A stretch of DNA of 39,444 bases. It comes from Nitrospira sp. SB0662_bin_26 (GTDB lineage Bacteria; Nitrospirota; Nitrospiria; Nitrospirales; UBA8639). A program made the position numbers and the translations under genes. Of this stretch, positions 1 through 37,840 are shown piece after piece; position 1 is the first letter of the stretch; the number at the start of each line of letters is the position of its first letter. The stretch is from the NCBI GenBank assembly GCA_009840285.1, contig VXOF01000060.1:1-39444 (forward strand). Reading direction: 5' to 3'. The notes below the pieces were generated by a model. The model was not told the origin of the DNA and did no database searches. It saw nothing but the letters and a program-made list of their open reading frames with translations.

Positions 1-54
1 GAGCGAGGACACAACGCAGCCCTGCGCCCGATAGTGCATTAAATCAGAGGTTCC
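1..54. mobile_element. Partial MITE-like element (copy 1)
   Basis: These 54 bases are identical to the last 54 bases of the complete element at 27430-27571 and end in the same terminal inverted repeat, TAAATCAGAGGTTCC (40-54). The other end lies outside the window. The first gene of the window begins 26 bases further on. No transposase is visible, so mobility would need to be supplied in trans. Confidence 0.8.
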
Positions 55-24752: not shown

Positions 24753-27278
24753 TTACACGTTGCGCACCCAGACCTCCCACAAGCGGGACAAATTTTCCCA
24801 TTCGCGTGTCAGCGAATAATCGCTCAGTTCCAGAGGAACGGGGTGACGATCCGTCGTGCGACAGACCCGAAATTCTCCGGCATCCGGCTTCGCGGAAAAC
24901 ACGATCGCGCCGTGGGCATCAGTTCGGTAGATGGTCATATGCCCGTACGCCTGCAACACATCCTCGGCGGGATGCCCGTAACGATTTCCCCGACCCGCGG
25001 ACACCACCGAGATCTCCGCGTTCAGTTGTTGAATCCATTGTCGATTCAGTGAACTCTTGGCTCCATGATGCGGAATCTTGACCAGGATCGCTGACTCCAC
25101 CAACGGATGGCCGGTCAATCTGGCCAAGGCTTCGATTTCCGCATCAGCCGTCAACAGAATGGAGTGCTCGCCGCAAGTCAGACTCAGAACCACGGAGAGA
25201 TTGTTCAATTCCGATCCTCGAGAATCGTTCAACGTGGCGTCATCTTCCGGCAACGGCGGGTTCAGCGATATGAACCGACAGGGCCATTCCTGCTCCAACG
25301 TTTCTCCTTCCAGGGCAACACGTTCAACGAGTCCCTGTTTCGCAATCGTCTTTTGGAGGCGTTGATAAAAGGGGGTCGCTCGCCGAATCCCGTTACTCCA
25401 ATAGTGATCGACCTCGAAGTTGTCGATGATCCAAACAAGCCCGCCCACGTGATCCAATTGCGGATGAGTGGCAATCACGTGAGTCAACCGCCTGATGCCT
25501 CGATCCCACAAATACGGTCCCACCACCATGCGGCCGATGTCCCACCGTTCATAGGCGGCCCCGCCGTCAACCAGAATCGTGTCGCCGCCGGGAAGTTCGA
25601 TCACCGTGGCGTCGCCTTGCCCCACGTCCAGAAACGTCACGCGCAGCGCATCATCCTCAAACACGTGTCGCGGCGACCACGCCCACCACACCAGGCAGAA
25701 GATCAGCGCACTCACGCTGAGGCCCTGCACCGTCCTTTTCCGGCTAAGCAACGCTATCGCGAGACACAGATAGAAGCCTGCTATGGATAGGACCGACGGC
25801 GACGCCACGTGCCATTCGGCACCGGGAATCATGGCCAGCATGCCGACAACGGATGTCAAGCCGTCCATGAGTTCCTGATGAATCCAGCCGAAAGGCAAGT
25901 GCTCCAGCCCGCCGAACAAGACGAGCAGCGACGCACCGAGTCCCAACGGCACGACCAGCATGCCGACGAACGGTACGACAACCGCATTGGCAAAGAGGCC
26001 CAACCACGCCACCTGATTGAAATAGTACGCCACGAGCGGCACGGTCCCCACGGTGGCGGCAAGGGTCATCAACGCATACTGTTTTCCCCAATGTTTTACT
26101 TTGTCCGTGAAGGCCTGCGGGATCTCGCCTTCGTCGTCGTCGCTCGGACTCCATTGAAAGACCAGGGCAATAGCCAGGACGGAAATATACGAGAGTTGAA
26201 AAGACAGAGCGTACAGCGCCCCGGGATCGGCCAGTGTCGTACCCAACGCGGCGATAGCCAATGCAATGAGAATCCGTCGCTCATAACCGATCCACACCGC
26301 GAAGAGATACAACAGGATCATCAGCAGCGATCGAACGGTCGCAACGTGGGCGCCGGACAACAGCGTATAAAACAGGACCATGGGGACGGTGACCAGCACC
26401 GCAAGTTGCCTGGGAGTCAGGATACACGAGAGTCTTTCCAGCCACCGGACCGGCATGCGGCGAGTGAGCCCCCTCACGCCCAGGAACGAGACAAAGGCCA
26501 GCAATCCCAAATGTGAACCTGATATGGAAATGATGTGGACCGTCCCCGTCGTCATGAAATCGTCACGCACGTCCGGGGGAATATCGTTCTGCTCTCCGAC
26601 GATCATGCCCAGAAACAAACCGCGGGCCGGCTGTTGGAGCGTTGCAATGGCAGCTTGGCGCACCTGATTTCTCCCACGATCAACCTGCGACCATATCCAT
26701 TCACTCAAATCGAAGATGCCGGGAGGTTGCAGCTGTATTCTCTGAGGCCCTCTGACGGTCGCGACCGCGTGAATCCCGCGATCCCTGAGGTAGGCGCCGT
26801 AGTCGAATCCGCCGGGATTCCGTGTACCGAAAGGCCGGCGAATGCGAGCACGGACCGTGATCCTGTCGCCCCGAAATATATCCGTCTCCGGTTCACACTC
26901 GTGACCCGGCTTACACGGACGCCACGTCAAGCGCAGATTCCCACGGACTTCACGGCTCGCGCCGTCCTGTTGGACGGATTCCACAGCCACGATCATCGTC
27001 ATTCGGCCCGGACCATGCTCGACCGGTGCCGTCACGACGCCGGAAAGCGCCACCTCTTGCCGGCCGGTTTGAAACGGCAGATCAACCCCTTGATCCGTTC
27101 TCGCGTCCAGCAACCAATATCCCAAGCCGGTCAGGATACAAGCATATAGGATGAGTCCCTGTCTCTTGGAGAAATGCGCCGTCTTCTCAAACCAGGACAA
27201 CGCGCCGGCGACGGAGACCAGCAGGATCAGAATCGTGATTGGAAGAAAGAAAAGCCAGGACCCGAGCAGGAGTCCCAC
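24753..27278 (-). CDS. comEC: DNA uptake channel ComEC/Rec2
   Basis: An 841-residue polytopic membrane protein that forms the channel for single-stranded DNA import in natural transformation. Three parts are visible: an N-terminal membrane/DUF4131 region with an OB-like segment (about 70-190, EVALSGVVTAPVEHGPGRMT), the Competence domain (about 220-500, with GMIVGEQNDIPPDVRDDF and ISGSHLGLLAFV) and a C-terminal metallo-beta-lactamase-like domain with FLDVGQGDATVIE, HPQLDHVGG and IPHHGAKSS. All metal-site motifs are present, so it looks intact. The start is uncertain: GTG 27278 has no good ribosome binding site, and the 5' side borders a MITE-like insertion 150 bases away. Other competence genes are not in the window. 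Confidence 0.93.
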   Translation of the reverse strand: MGLLLGSWLFFLPITILILLVSVAGALSWFEKTAHFSKRQGLILYACILTGLGYWLLDARTDQGVDLPFQTGRQEVALSGVVTAPVEHGPGRMTMIVAVESVQQDGASREVRGNLRLTWRPCKPGHECEPETDIFRGDRITVRARIRRPFGTRNPGGFDYGAYLRDRGIHAVATVRGPQRIQLQPPGIFDLSEWIWSQVDRGRNQVRQAAIATLQQPARGLFLGMIVGEQNDIPPDVRDDFMTTGTVHIISISGSHLGLLAFVSFLGVRGLTRRMPVRWLERLSCILTPRQLAVLVTVPMVLFYTLLSGAHVATVRSLLMILLYLFAVWIGYERRILIALAIAALGTTLADPGALYALSFQLSYISVLAIALVFQWSPSDDDEGEIPQAFTDKVKHWGKQYALMTLAATVGTVPLVAYYFNQVAWLGLFANAVVVPFVGMLVVPLGLGASLLVLFGGLEHLPFGWIHQELMDGLTSVVGMLAMIPGAEWHVASPSVLSIAGFYLCLAIALLSRKRTVQGLSVSALIFCLVWWAWSPRHVFEDDALRVTFLDVGQGDATVIELPGGDTILVDGGAAYERWDIGRMVVGPYLWDRGIRRLTHVIATHPQLDHVGGLVWIIDNFEVDHYWSNGIRRATPFYQRLQKTIAKQGLVERVALEGETLEQEWPCRFISLNPPLPEDDATLNDSRGSELNNLSVVLSLTCGEHSILLTADAEIEALARLTGHPLVESAILVKIPHHGAKSSLNRQWIQQLNAEISVVSAGRGNRYGHPAEDVLQAYGHMTIYRTDAHGAIVFSAKPDAGEFRVCRTTDRHPVPLELSDYSLTREWENLSRLWEVWVRNV

Positions 27279-27429
27279 GAGGAAGGCAATAATGCCGGAG
27301 AGAAATACGCTAGAAAGGCACCCTGTTAATTTACGGCAATTTGGATCAAAGGGTCAATATTAGAGAGAATGCCTTCTCGCATTCATGAACGAACATCCCA
27401 TTCTTTGACGCGCGTTGCCTGCGAATTAT

Positions 27430-27571
27430 GGAACCTCTGATTTATTGTGATTGCGGGATGCAGGACAAGGCGTCCCGGAGCGAAACCCGAGGCTTATCAG
27501 AGAGATAGGTGAGGGTTGAGCGAGGACACAACGCAGCCCTGCGCCCGATAGTGCATTAAATCAGAGGTTCC
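27430..27571. mobile_element. Complete 142-bp MITE-like element (copy 2)
   Basis: The element begins GGAACCTCTGATTTA (27430-27444) and ends TAAATCAGAGGTTCC (27557-27571), perfect 15-bp terminal inverted repeats. TTAT immediately precedes (27426-27429) and follows (27572-27575) it, a 4-bp target duplication. Imperfect pairing continues inward from both ends for about 65 bases, so the single strand folds back on itself. It has no gene. The right end abuts the TAA stop of glmM, the duplicated TTAT supplying that stop. An IS5-like helper transposase is plausible from end style and duplication length. Confidence 0.85.
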
Positions 27572-28921
27572 TTATCCGATTACGGCCTTGACCACGCCAG
27601 CCAAGTCTTCCGCGACGGCTTTGATCTGCGAATCATCCCGGCCCTCAACCATGACCCGGACCAACGGCTCGGTTCCGGAATACCGCACCAGAATCCGTCC
27701 CGTCCCATTCAACCGTTCTTCACCGGATCGAATCGCTTCCCGCAACTCGGGGAGAGAGCCCAGGTCGGGTTTCCGGTTCACTTTCACCCCCAACAAAACT
27801 TGCGGAACGGTCTCGATACACCGGGTCAGCTCCGAGAGAGGAGAACCGGACCGCTTGACCAACTTGAGCATTTGCAGGCCGGAAATCAGACCGTCTCCGG
27901 TCGTATTATAGTCGAGAAAAATGACGTGTCCCGATTGTTCTCCTCCCAGGTTATAGCCCTCGGCCAACATGCGTTCCAAGATGGACCGGTCGCCAACGGG
28001 GGTCCGGATCAGATTGATTCCGTTCTTTTGCATGGCCAATTCAAACCCGAAATTCGTCATGACCGTTCCGACGACGGTATCGCGATTGAGCCCGCCGCGT
28101 CGCTGCAAATCCAAAGCAAAGGCGGCCAGGGCCTGATCGCCATGCACCACGCCACCCTCTTCGTTCACAAACACGGCCCGGTCCGCGTCGCCGTCCAAGG
28201 CAATCCCCACGTCGCCTCGACGCGCACGAACGGCCTCCTGCAGTCGCTCCGGGTAGAGGGCTCCATACCCCGCGTTGATGTTTGTGCCGTCCGGTTCGTC
28301 TCCGATGACGGACACGTCGGCACCCAATTCCCGTACGACCTTGGGAAAGACCGAATACGCGGCGCCATGGGCACAGTCGATGACCACCTTCATCCCCTGA
28401 TAATCCATTTCGCGCGGCAGGGACCGTTTCACGAATTCGATATAGCGTCCTTCGGCATCGTCAATGCGAAACGCCTTGCCGATTTCATCGGCCGTGGGAC
28501 GAAGATGTTCGATCTCGTTCGTCACGATCAATTCTTCAATGCGTGATTCCAGTTCATCGGGAAGTTTGAAGCCGTCGTGTGAAAAAAACTTGATCCCGTT
28601 ATCCTGGTAGGGATTGTGGGAGGCGGAAATCATCACCCCCGCGTCGGCTCGGAGGCTGCGCGTCAAAAAGGCCACGCCCGGCGAAGGCATCGGCCCGACC
28701 AGCAAGACGTCGACCCCCATGGAACAAATGCCGGAGATCAGTGCCGATTCCAACATGTAGCCGGACAGCCGGGTGTCTTTGCCGATCACGATTTGATGGT
28801 GCCCTGCCCGTCCCTTGAACACGTAGGCCACGGCCCTACCCAACTTCAGCACCGTTTCACTGTTCATAGGCTCCAGGTTGGCAACGCCCCGTACCCCGTC
28901 GGTTCCGAATAATTTCCGCAC
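27572..28921 (-). CDS. glmM: Phosphoglucosamine mutase
   Basis: A 449-residue enzyme converting glucosamine-6-phosphate to glucosamine-1-phosphate for UDP-GlcNAc, peptidoglycan and LPS synthesis. The active phosphoserine is S101 in ISASHNPYQDNGIK, the metal loop is DGDADRA, and the sugar-specificity loop GGEQSGHVIF and phosphate site RYSGTEPLVRV are intact. I start at GTG 28921 (MRKLFGTDGVRG), directly after AGGAGG; the upstream TTG 28951 would add ten unrelated residues. It lies 26 bases after folP. Its stop codon coincides with the target duplication of a MITE-like element. Confidence 0.96.
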   Translation of the reverse strand: MRKLFGTDGVRGVANLEPMNSETVLKLGRAVAYVFKGRAGHHQIVIGKDTRLSGYMLESALISGICSMGVDVLLVGPMPSPGVAFLTRSLRADAGVMISASHNPYQDNGIKFFSHDGFKLPDELESRIEELIVTNEIEHLRPTADEIGKAFRIDDAEGRYIEFVKRSLPREMDYQGMKVVIDCAHGAAYSVFPKVVRELGADVSVIGDEPDGTNINAGYGALYPERLQEAVRARRGDVGIALDGDADRAVFVNEEGGVVHGDQALAAFALDLQRRGGLNRDTVVGTVMTNFGFELAMQKNGINLIRTPVGDRSILERMLAEGYNLGGEQSGHVIFLDYNTTGDGLISGLQMLKLVKRSGSPLSELTRCIETVPQVLLGVKVNRKPDLGSLPELREAIRSGEERLNGTGRILVRYSGTEPLVRVMVEGRDDSQIKAVAEDLAGVVKAVIG

Positions 28922-28947
28922 TTGACCTCCTGACACAATGTCTCCTT

Positions 28948-29799
28948 TCAAGTCTGGGCAATAGCTTCCGACATTCGCACCACCTCCCGGATCGACCCGA
29001 CGTCATGCACGCGAATGATCCTGGCTCCACCCAACACCGCGGCCGCCACGGCCGCGGCAGTTCCCATGATGCGTTGCGCCACGGGTTGACCGGTGACCGT
29101 CCCGATGAAGGATTTATTCGACACGCCGATCAGAACGGGACGACCCAACTGCTGCAATGAGCCGAGGCCTTTCAGTAAGGATAGATTCTGTTGTTCGTTT
29201 TTTGCAAACCCGATCCCCGGATCGATCAACATGTGCTCGCGAGCGATCCCGATTTCCTCGGCATGGTCCATGCGACTTCCCAAATAATCGCGTACATCCT
29301 CGACCACGTTGTCGTATTGGCAATGCTGCTGCATCGTCTGGGGCGTACCTCGCATATGCATCAGGACCAGCCCTGCTTTGGTCCGTGCAACCACGCCACC
29401 CATCCGGGAATCATGCTCCAACGCGCTGATATCGTTGATGATCACTGCGCCCCAGTCGATCGCCCGTTCGGCGACCCCGGCTTTCCGAGTGTCGATGGAG
29501 AGTGGAACCGTCGCTCGTTTTCCGATGGCCTCCATGACCGGCTTCAATCGACGAATTTCCTCTTGTTCATCAATAGCCTGTGAACCGGGACGCGTCGATT
29601 CGGCACCGATGTCTACCAGATCGGCCCCTTCACTCACCATCCGTTCAACATGAGCCAGGGCGCGTTGAGGATCGAGAAAGTGCCCGCCGTCGGAAAAAGA
29701 ATCCGGGGTCACGTTCAGTATGCCCATCACCAGGACGTGACGGGAACAGGGAATCCTGACGTGGCAGGCTTGCAGGTACGCGGAGCGGATTTCATCCAT
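28948..29799 (-). CDS. folP: Dihydropteroate synthase
   Basis: A 283-residue TIM-barrel enzyme joining p-aminobenzoate to hydroxymethyl-dihydropterin diphosphate in folate synthesis. The pterin loop MGILNVTPDSFSDGG, loop 2 DIGAESTRPGS, DTRKAGVAERAI, NDISALEHD and GVSNKSFIG are all present. GGAG sits 8 bases before ATG 29799; an upstream in-frame start is not supported. Upstream, GCCCGGT-CAAC-ACCGGGC (29825-29842) forms a perfect 7-bp stem hairpin without T-run between ftsH and folP. folP is followed by glmM after 26 bases, as in many bacteria (ftsH-folP-glmM). Confidence 0.96.
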   Translation of the reverse strand: MDEIRSAYLQACHVRIPCSRHVLVMGILNVTPDSFSDGGHFLDPQRALAHVERMVSEGADLVDIGAESTRPGSQAIDEQEEIRRLKPVMEAIGKRATVPLSIDTRKAGVAERAIDWGAVIINDISALEHDSRMGGVVARTKAGLVLMHMRGTPQTMQQHCQYDNVVEDVRDYLGSRMDHAEEIGIAREHMLIDPGIGFAKNEQQNLSLLKGLGSLQQLGRPVLIGVSNKSFIGTVTGQPVAQRIMGTAAAVAAAVLGGARIIRVHDVGSIREVVRMSEAIAQT

Positions 29800-33386: not shown

Positions 33387-34310
33387 TTATGCGGCAAACA
33401 CGCGCCTGGTCTGCTGAACGTCCTGAGCGATTCGTTCGGCAAGCTGCCCGGAATCGTCAAACCGTTCATCGCCTCGAATGTATTGTAAGAATTGAACTTC
33501 AATGGCTTGTCCATACAGTTCACAGGCGCCATCCAGAACATGCACTTCCAGTAATCGTTCGCCCTCTCCGAACGTGGGACGTGTCCCGATGTAACTCACC
33601 GCGGGAGAGGCCGCCTCCTGCCACACCATCTTTGTGGCATACACCCCATCGGGCGGAAGAACCCGGTCTTTGTCAGGCCGAAGATTGGCCGTGCGATAGC
33701 CCAACCCCTGCCCGCGACGTTCGCCTTCAATCACCGTGCCTTTCAGGGAATACGGACGTCCCAGACATTGCATCGCCTGTTCCATCTTCCCTGCCCGGAC
33801 AAACTGGCGAATACGTGTCGAGCTCACGATCGCTTCCCGGGAACTCACGGGTTTGAGGAGATGAACCCGGAACCCGGCTTGTCCGGCCAACTCCCGCAGG
33901 GTATCCGTGTTGCCCGCCCGGTTCTTGCCGAAGACAAAATGCTCCCCTACGAACAGATCTTTGACGCCCAGCCCATCCTTGAGGATCGACCACACAAACT
34001 CCCGTGGGCTCAAAGCGGCAAACTCTTGGGTGAAAGGCAACACCACGAGATGCTCGACGCCCTGCGCCTCGAACCAAGCCAACTTTTCCGAAGGGGACGT
34101 CAAGAATTGAAAGGTGGTTCCGGGACTCAACACCAACACCGGATGGGGATCAAAGGTCAACACCATCGGCGTACCCCGTCGTTCACGAGCACATTGAACG
34201 ACGGTAGCCAGCAATTCTCGATGTCCGACGTGCTGCCCGTCAAAATTGCCGATGGTCAGAACCGGATTGGACGACAAAGGAGGCTCTGGAAGCCCGTGCG
34301 AAACCTTCAT
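33387..34310 (-). CDS. ribF: Bifunctional riboflavin kinase/FAD synthetase
   Basis: A 307-residue enzyme making FMN and then FAD from riboflavin. The N-terminal adenylyltransferase part has [24 protein letters not shown] and SSTRIRQFV; the C-terminal kinase part has [27 protein letters not shown] with TAN and PDGVYAT, then [23 protein letters not shown] 34310 overlaps the hemB stop as ATGA, so translation is coupled to hemB and the start is well fixed. Linking FAD supply to haem synthesis fits the flavoprotein-rich window, but the association may be fortuitous. Confidence 0.95.
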
Positions 34311-35290
34311 GGGGTGGCGGCATTCAAGAACTTGGCGGCATCCTTGGCAAAATACGTCAGGATGAGATCGGCACCGGCACGTTTGATGGACAACAGCGTT
34401 TCCAACGTCGCTTTGGATTCGTCCAGCCATCCCTGTTGGGCTGCAGCCTTGATCATGCTGTATTCGCCGCTGACTTGAAACGCCGCCACGGGTACGTCCA
34501 CCTCGGCCCGCGTTCGCGCAATAATATCCAGGTACGCCAGCGCCGGTTTGACCATGACCACGTCTGCACCCTCTTCCACGTCGGCCCGCACTTCACGGAC
34601 GGCTTCACGCGCATTGGCGGGATCCATTTGATACGAGCACCGGTCACCGAATGCGGGGCTGGAAGAAGCCGCCTCCCTGAACGGCGCATACAGGCAGGAC
34701 GCATACTTGGCGGCATAGGACATGATGGGAAGGTGCGTGAATCCCCCCTGATCCAATTCGTCGCGGACCGCCGCGACCCGCCCGTCCATCATGTCGGACG
34801 GCGCCACCATGTCAGCCCCGGCCACTGCATGGGTTTTTGCCATCAGGCGCAAACAGTCAAGGGTTTCATCGTTCAGGATGCGCCCGTCTTTCACGATGCC
34901 GCAATGGCCATGGGACGTATATTCGTCGATACAGACGTCCGTCACCACAAAAAGACCCGGCACATGCTCCTTGAGCGCGCGGACGGCCCGTTGCACGATC
35001 CCGTCCTGATCATAACCGGAAGACCCGCGTTCATCCTTGTGATCGGGGATCCCGAAGAGCATGACCGCCGGAATGCCCAGCAGGTGCGCGTCGGTGGCTT
35101 CCTTGATCAGACGATCGATGGACCACCGGAATTGACCCGGCATCGACTGAATGGGTTCCTGTTGATCCGCTCCTTCCCTGACGAATAGGGGATAAATCAG
35201 GTTGCTCGGCGACAGCGCGGTTTCGCGCACCATCCGGCGAAGAGGCTCGGATTCACGCAAGCGCCGCATTCGTTGACGAGGAAATCCCAT
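34307..35290 (-). CDS. hemB: Porphobilinogen synthase (delta-aminolevulinic acid dehydratase)
   Basis: A 327-residue TIM-barrel enzyme condensing two 5-aminolevulinate molecules to porphobilinogen. The two active lysines are K195 (SYAAKYAS) and K248 ([11 protein letters not shown]). The metal loop is [14 protein letters not shown]: two of the three zinc cysteines remain (C120, C130) and the middle one is Asp (D122), a mixed site. ATG 35290 and GTG 35293 are adjacent starts; neither has a good ribosome binding site, because the upstream 75 bases are a degraded MITE-like end. The gene overlaps ribF by 4 bases. It follows the first CBS gene in the haem operon. Confidence 0.96.
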
Positions 35291-35293
35291 CAC

Positions 35294-35367
35294 TTATTAG
35301 ATAGGCGAGGGTTGAGCGAGGACACAACGCCGCCATGCGCCCGATAGTGCCGTAAAGCAGAGGTTCC
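35294..35367. mobile_element. Degraded half MITE-like element (copy 3)
   Basis: 35314-35367 aligns without gaps to the last 54 bases of the complete element with five mismatches, and ends in TAAAGCAGAGGTTCC, a TIR with one change. Similarity extends to about 35294 with a 4-base deletion. The left half is missing; the hemB start codon begins right there. It occupies nearly all of the CBS1-hemB gap. Confidence 0.75.
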
Positions 35368-35371
35368 CAAA

Positions 35372-35764
35372 TTATTTCCTGGGGAGATTCGTCAAGAACA
35401 CCACCAGATCCCGCACGGAGATCATCCCGACAAGCTCCCCGCCTTTCGAGACTCCCAAATGCCGGACGTGCTCCTTGGCCATCAGGTCATTGGCATCCAA
35501 CAACGTCTTGTTCTCATCAATTTTCAACACCGGCGCCGACATGATTTGCTCGACGGTCGTCCGATCCGGATCCAATCCCGCCGCCACTAACCGCCGGACG
35601 AGATCCGTGTCGGTCAGAACCCCGATGATCTCCTTATCCCGGGTGACGAACACACTGCCGATACCACTATCCTTCATGATTTCTGCCGCTTTCCGGACAC
35701 TGGTGTCACGATCAACGGTAATAAATTTTTCAGCGGGGACCATAAACGATTTCACTGGAACCAT
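35372..35764 (-). CDS. CBS-domain pair protein (CBS1)
   Basis: A 130-residue protein made of two CBS motifs (about 7-60 and 70-128), which together form one Bateman module that usually binds adenosine nucleotides. Typical positions are GIGSVFVTRDKEIIGVLTDTDL and HVRHLGVSKGGELVGMISVRDLV. No catalytic domain is attached, so it probably acts as a small sensor or regulator. AAGGAG lies before the ATG. A perfect TATAAT (35797-35792) upstream may give it a separate promoter. It is a close paralogue of the 37394-37840 gene, the homology extending into the leader; the two copies bracket cobA-hemD. A MITE-like half element follows its stop. Confidence 0.9.
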   Translation of the reverse strand: MVPVKSFMVPAEKFITVDRDTSVRKAAEIMKDSGIGSVFVTRDKEIIGVLTDTDLVRRLVAAGLDPDRTTVEQIMSAPVLKIDENKTLLDANDLMAKEHVRHLGVSKGGELVGMISVRDLVVFLTNLPRK

Positions 35765-37393: not shown

Positions 37394-37450
37394 TTACGGA
37401 CGTCCATAGATTTGCTCTAAAATACGTGTTCCCCCCTTGCCTAGGATCCA
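37394..37450. repeat. Diverged copy of the hemC 3' end (partner 37917-37973)
   Basis: The first 57 bases here match the 57 bases at 37917-37973, the end of hemC, at 38 positions by my ungapped count, including TTAC, CGTCC, TAGATT, TCTAA and CCCCC blocks. The corresponding proteins align in the same frame. This is a direct duplication 523 bases apart, enclosing the CBS2 gene and its leader. Confidence 0.75.
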
Positions 37451-37840
37451 TTTTTTGGGAAGATTCGACACGAACGTGACCATATCCCTCACGGAGATCA
37501 TTCCAACGAGATTTCCGTCCCGCGTGACACCCAAATGCCGGATGTGTTCTCTGGCCATCATGGCATTGGCATCGCGAATCGTCTTGTTCTCATCAATTTT
37601 TATAACGGGCGATGTCATGACGTGTTCGACGGACGTTTGGTCCGCATCCAGACCCATCCCCACCAACCGCCTGCAGATATCCGTATCGGTCACAATCCCG
37701 ATGATCACCCTGTCCCAGGTGACAAGTACACTGCCAATGCCGGTATCCTTCATGATTTTCGCCGCCCGCCGGACGCTGATATGACGATCGACGGCGATGA
37801 CTTTATCAAAAGGGATCATGAATGTTTTCACCGGAACCAT
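37394..37840 (-). CDS. CBS-domain pair protein with a HemC-derived tail (CBS2)
   Basis: A 148-residue paralogue of the 35372-35764 protein, with two CBS motifs (about 7-60, 70-128; GIGSVLVTWDRVIIGIVTDTD, HIRHLGVTRDGNLVGMISVRD). After the shared NLPKK the protein does not stop but continues ILGKGGTRILEQIYGRP, which matches the HemC C-terminus ILSAGGRQILDRIYGRV at 10 of 17 positions. The leader AAGGAG and about 34 upstream bases match CBS1. The stop TAA is followed at once by the cobA-hemD ATG. It lies 76 bases after hemC. Nucleotide-sensing regulation of tetrapyrrole synthesis is possible but unproven. Confidence 0.9.
   Translation of the reverse strand: MVPVKTFMIPFDKVIAVDRHISVRRAAKIMKDTGIGSVLVTWDRVIIGIVTDTDICRRLVGMGLDADQTSVEHVMTSPVIKIDENKTIRDANAMMAREHIRHLGVTRDGNLVGMISVRDMVTFVSNLPKKWILGKGGTRILEQIYGRP

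Follow-up and report, generated by a model that had tools for sequence, protein, structure and literature searches.

What is the short, gene-less segment that lies between the comEC gene (24753-27278, minus strand) and the glmM gene (27572-28951, minus strand) of Nitrospira sp. SB0662_bin_26, and what brought it there? The window analyzed here, a stretch of 39,444 nucleotides, is contig C3 of this draft genome.

A foldback element inserted at the glmM stop codon

The segment (27430-27571, plus strand) is an intact element of 142 bp that encodes no gene and is bounded by perfect 15-bp terminal inverted repeats (TIRs): GGAACCTCTGATTTA on the left (27430-27444, plus strand) and its reverse complement on the right (27557-27571, minus strand). 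It is flanked on both sides by the tetranucleotide TTAT (27426-27429 and 27572-27575), a target duplication (TSD). As the right-hand TTAT holds the glmM stop codon TAA (27572-27574, minus strand), the insertion left glmM intact. The element folds end to end, with -70.2 kcal/mol versus a mean of -39.0 for shuffled sequences (z = -8.3). The coordinates, 15-bp TIRs, absence of a gene and inward pairing described in a sequence-only reading of this DNA were all exact. Its assignment to the MITEs was also upheld, the element being short and non-coding, with TIRs, a TSD and dispersed copies.

The same reading had proposed that the TTAT duplication be verified on empty sites. The glmM locus of a sister genome (G004) provides an exact one, with a single TTAT (CTACGAATTATCCGATGG, versus GCGAATTAT, the 142 bp and TTATCCGAT in our genome), which confirms the duplication. 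At this site, G013 harbors a full copy with a second copy beside it, G008 a rearranged remnant, and G011 an 11-bp footprint, while the remaining sister genomes have no element.

Copies in the window and in the genus

Two further parts of the window match the element. Between hemB (34307-35290, minus strand) and a CBS-domain gene (35372-35764, minus strand), positions 35294-35367 (plus strand; homology from 35299) hold a decayed right-half copy. Its status as an older half copy, suspected from the window sequence, is supported by the 91% identity of 35299-35367 to the right half of the 142-bp element and by a full-length copy (L258) that occupies this site in G004; none was seen there in the other genomes. 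Nearby, two 300-bp stretches (35374-35673 and 37450-37749) are 76% identical and apparently belong to related CBS-domain genes; most sister genomes have conserved both together.

The second match, positions 1-54 (plus strand), is identical to 27518-27571 and corresponds to the right end of another copy cut at the contig start. Base 1 of the window is the contig end of C3; contigs C1, C39, C57, C58, C59, C60, C76 and C113 start in the same way, and many contigs of this genome begin or end at the same place inside the MITE repeat. Positions 1-54 are an assembly cut and no biological partial copy, and therefore give no information on recent movement or conversion, which had been deduced from their identity. 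That identity could also be taken as a sign that the three window copies arose by local duplication or gene conversion, with no transposition. The stretch is a contig edge, however, the sites of the copies are unrelated and their TSDs differ, and the exact empty site contradicts such an origin, to which we attach virtually no probability.

The three copies seen in the window understated the family. When the genome and its relatives were searched with the 142-bp sequence, as had been suggested, at least 40 near-full copies (90-100% identity) were found in the 2.2 Mb of this genome, about 95 candidates having been counted at first look. The TIR 15-mer, with up to two mismatches, occurred at about 127 ends compared with 0 for a reversed control. 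The MITE was present in 11 of 14 same-genus genomes and in none of a sample of 84 genomes from outside the genus, most of the assemblies compared being fragmented (113 contigs for our draft genome). Carriers with a name are recorded as Nitrospira sp. or as metagenome-assembled genomes of Nitrospirales; judging by the project names, several may be sponge symbionts. Within the genus the family is old, with separate amplifications in several species. Shortened forms also occur in our genome: a derivative of 81 bp that has lost internal sequence but retains both TIRs, with TAAT on its flanks (L008, contig C6, 205-285), and a 23-bp left-end remnant just upstream of an apparent rplT (L040, contig C14, 871-893).

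Target sites and gene ends

Among the 93 copies with long flanks, 55 displayed a perfect 4-bp TSD. The target motif is T-T-A-A, with TSDs including TAAA, CTAA, ATAA, TCAA and similar tetranucleotides; it is looser than a strict YTAR, the target of IS5 (PMC10359306), and has the YTAR-like, 4-bp character expected of IS5-family MITEs. The sites are AT-rich, TTAA-like and gene-avoiding: according to a simple codon-score gene finder, whose starts are approximate and stops exact, 9 of the 93 copies lie inside genes, compared with 83% of positions drawn at random from these loci.

A stop codon is overlapped by 30 of the 93 copies. For 43 independent TSD sites, 16 overlaps were counted; the motif in permitted positions predicts 9.0 (simulated P about 0.002), and 4.6 are expected when the motif is ignored. 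This excess is suggestive only, as the weights of the motif were derived from these very sites. The stop-adjacent position of the MITE is at least half explained by its target motif.

This placement, together with the very stable fold, could nevertheless reflect a role such as that proposed for REP or ERIC elements, the element being kept at gene ends because its RNA or DNA structure is functional (mRNA stabilizer, processing site or terminator). Paired positions compared among 90 copies do contain 22 two-sided compensatory cells, but these are outnumbered by 103 pair-breaking ones; the terminator scan of the element revealed no terminator-like site, and the window gave no Rfam match, so that neither a compensatory excess nor a known RNA family was found. 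Moreover, the sites vary between species, the glmM site being empty or remodeled in most relatives, and gene avoidance and the target motif account for much of the placement. We consider such a role very improbable and claim no function for the MITE RNA.

A probable IS5-family partner in sister genomes

The sequence-only reading had attributed movement of the element to an IS5-like transposase encoded elsewhere. No IS5-type transposase was found in the 113 contigs of our draft genome using PF01609, PF13586 or the protein of the IS described below, and several other sister genomes rich in copies likewise had no detectable one. A partner IS in the same genome is usual for IS5-family MITEs but not a strict requirement. 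The Pfam domain DDE_Tnp_1, absent from our genome, is present in five sister genomes, and a complete IS occupies two of the loci. The first, in G008 (L092), is an intact IS of 1165 bp with the TIR GGAACCTCTGATTAAGTC, the TSD TTTA and one transposase ORF; the second, in G013 (L091), measures 1163 bp and is 86% identical to it. The G008 transposase belongs to the IS5 family (NF033581, 312 bits for a cut-off of 140; Pfam DUF772 and DDE_Tnp_1), and its type was found only in these two genomes. The MITE ends of our genome match this known IS over 13-14 bp and then differ, whereas those of the G008 MITE subfamily match it over 17 bp.

The attribution is supported by an intact IS in two sister genomes that shares end bases with the MITE. 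The expectation of a full IS carrying the MITE ends held in part: the intact IS of the relatives shares 13-14 bp, but the genus yielded no IS with full GGAACCTCTGATTTA ends, and our genome no partner IS of any kind. Like IS5-family ISs (NF033581, DUF772 and DDE_Tnp_1), the MITE exhibits the TIR core GGAACCTCTGAT and a 4-bp TTAA/YTAR-like TSD; it differs from them in having no transposase and no similarity in its interior, for which a comparison with the IS found none. Since its interior is dissimilar to the IS, the element is, in the terms of PMC10969869, a type II MITE. Judged by its ends, it is a type II (TIR-only) MITE of the IS5 family, a known kind.

It is highly probable that this non-coding foldback MITE is moved in trans by an IS5-type transposase, the partner being absent from or unassembled in our genome. 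The transposase would recognize MITE ends with the common core GGAACCTCTGAT and use AT-rich, TTAA/YTAR-like sites of 4 bp as targets, which would be duplicated on insertion; the remainder of the 142 bp would be a non-coding foldback carried as a passenger. Copies would survive where they are harmless, in intergenic positions and often right on stop codons. In our genome, they are probably stranded or intermittently helped. Mobilization in trans is what we infer from the comparison, as any effect on RNA would be.

Ends, modules and the choice of partner

The G008 form of this MITE is 94% identical in its interior and has been rewritten to GGAACCTCTGATTAAGTG at both ends; 168 GGAACCTCTGATTAAG ends were counted. 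The two ends of a copy change together, with 82 A/A and 19 B/B concordant copies versus 3 mixed; a Fisher test of this concordance overstates independence, as the copies are related by descent.

Subfamilies carry modules of 27-82 bp inserted exactly between TIR bases 11 and 12, for example TCCCCGATTAAGAACGTCGAGGACATG, with longer palindromic forms of up to about 82 bp. These are common in G008, G013, G011 and G001, on the left (as in L140), the right (L153) or both sides (L225); other module-bearing loci are L143, L182, L192, L103, L122 and L113, and our genome shows one decayed case (L226). Several module-bearing copies have clean TSDs and have therefore probably moved as units; a terminus of about 12 bases thus seems to suffice for transposition. 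At one G013 locus (contig C93, L221-L225), the IS5 element presumed to mobilize the MITE is present as a decayed copy that itself contains a MITE bearing modules on either side.

These ends bear on the identity of the partner. A different, unseen IS with exact GGAACCTCTGATTTA ends, lost or missing from the assemblies, could have mobilized the MITE in place of the G008/G013 IS5. The match of only 13-14 bp in our genome and the undetectable transposase there are in line with this, as is a 1217-bp IS5-like element of Oscillibacter sp. ER4 (L149, 321-1537), in which 19 bp of the left end agree with the MITE end. However, the known IS occurs alongside an amplified form of the same MITE with fully matched ends, the TSDs of module-bearing copies point to about 12 terminal bases as sufficient for movement, and any such partner would very likely still belong to the IS5 family. 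We regard this other IS as possible but rather unlikely; the mobilizer is almost certainly an ordinary IS5-family transposase that is no longer visible in our genome. A more specific scenario, which we also consider rather unlikely, is that of a modular parasite, with both ends being rewritten together to suit any IS5 transposase that happens to be resident (GATTTA to GATTAAGT at both ends), with growth through modules placed exactly behind a minimal recognition core of 11-12 bp, and with transposition biased to stop codons beyond the motif.

Relation to known MITEs and significance

Type II IS5-family MITEs have precedents in ATR of Neisseria meningitidis, with ISNme1 ends, and BrickBuilt of Porphyromonas gingivalis, with ISPg ends (PMC4596501). 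Like the present MITE, both are small, non-coding and multi-copy, with only TIRs in common with IS5-family ISs, and BrickBuilt also possesses variable internal repeat units. They differ in their TIRs (GAGACCTTTGCA type versus GGAACCTCTGAT here), host and interior; the family described here has more copies and an end-to-end fold. Another parallel is the IS982-derived MITE of Cardinium, likewise a lineage-specific burst in a host-associated bacterium that was attributed to a parental IS (PMC9769881).

The same GGAACCTCTGATTTA ends were observed with different interiors in 140-bp MITEs of Granulosicoccaceae (L099, L117, L123, L132, L136, L161) and in 98-99-bp MITEs of Clostridia (L116, L147). These loci were rejected as family members, different interiors denoting separate families. 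Shared ends in unrelated bacteria suggest a repeated origin from similar IS5 ends.

Literature searches on the TIR core returned unrelated papers only, and those on Nitrospira MITEs and sponge-symbiont transposable elements returned no description of this family. For this lineage, in which the element is an IS5-type MITE of high copy number, we found no MITE report. The repeat also explains breaks in these metagenome assemblies, many contig ends lying inside it. The mechanism is well supported and the comparative material good: the 14 sister genomes, which offer empty sites, partners both matched and mismatched, and ends that have recombined, constitute a natural experiment on the end length that an IS5 transposase needs.
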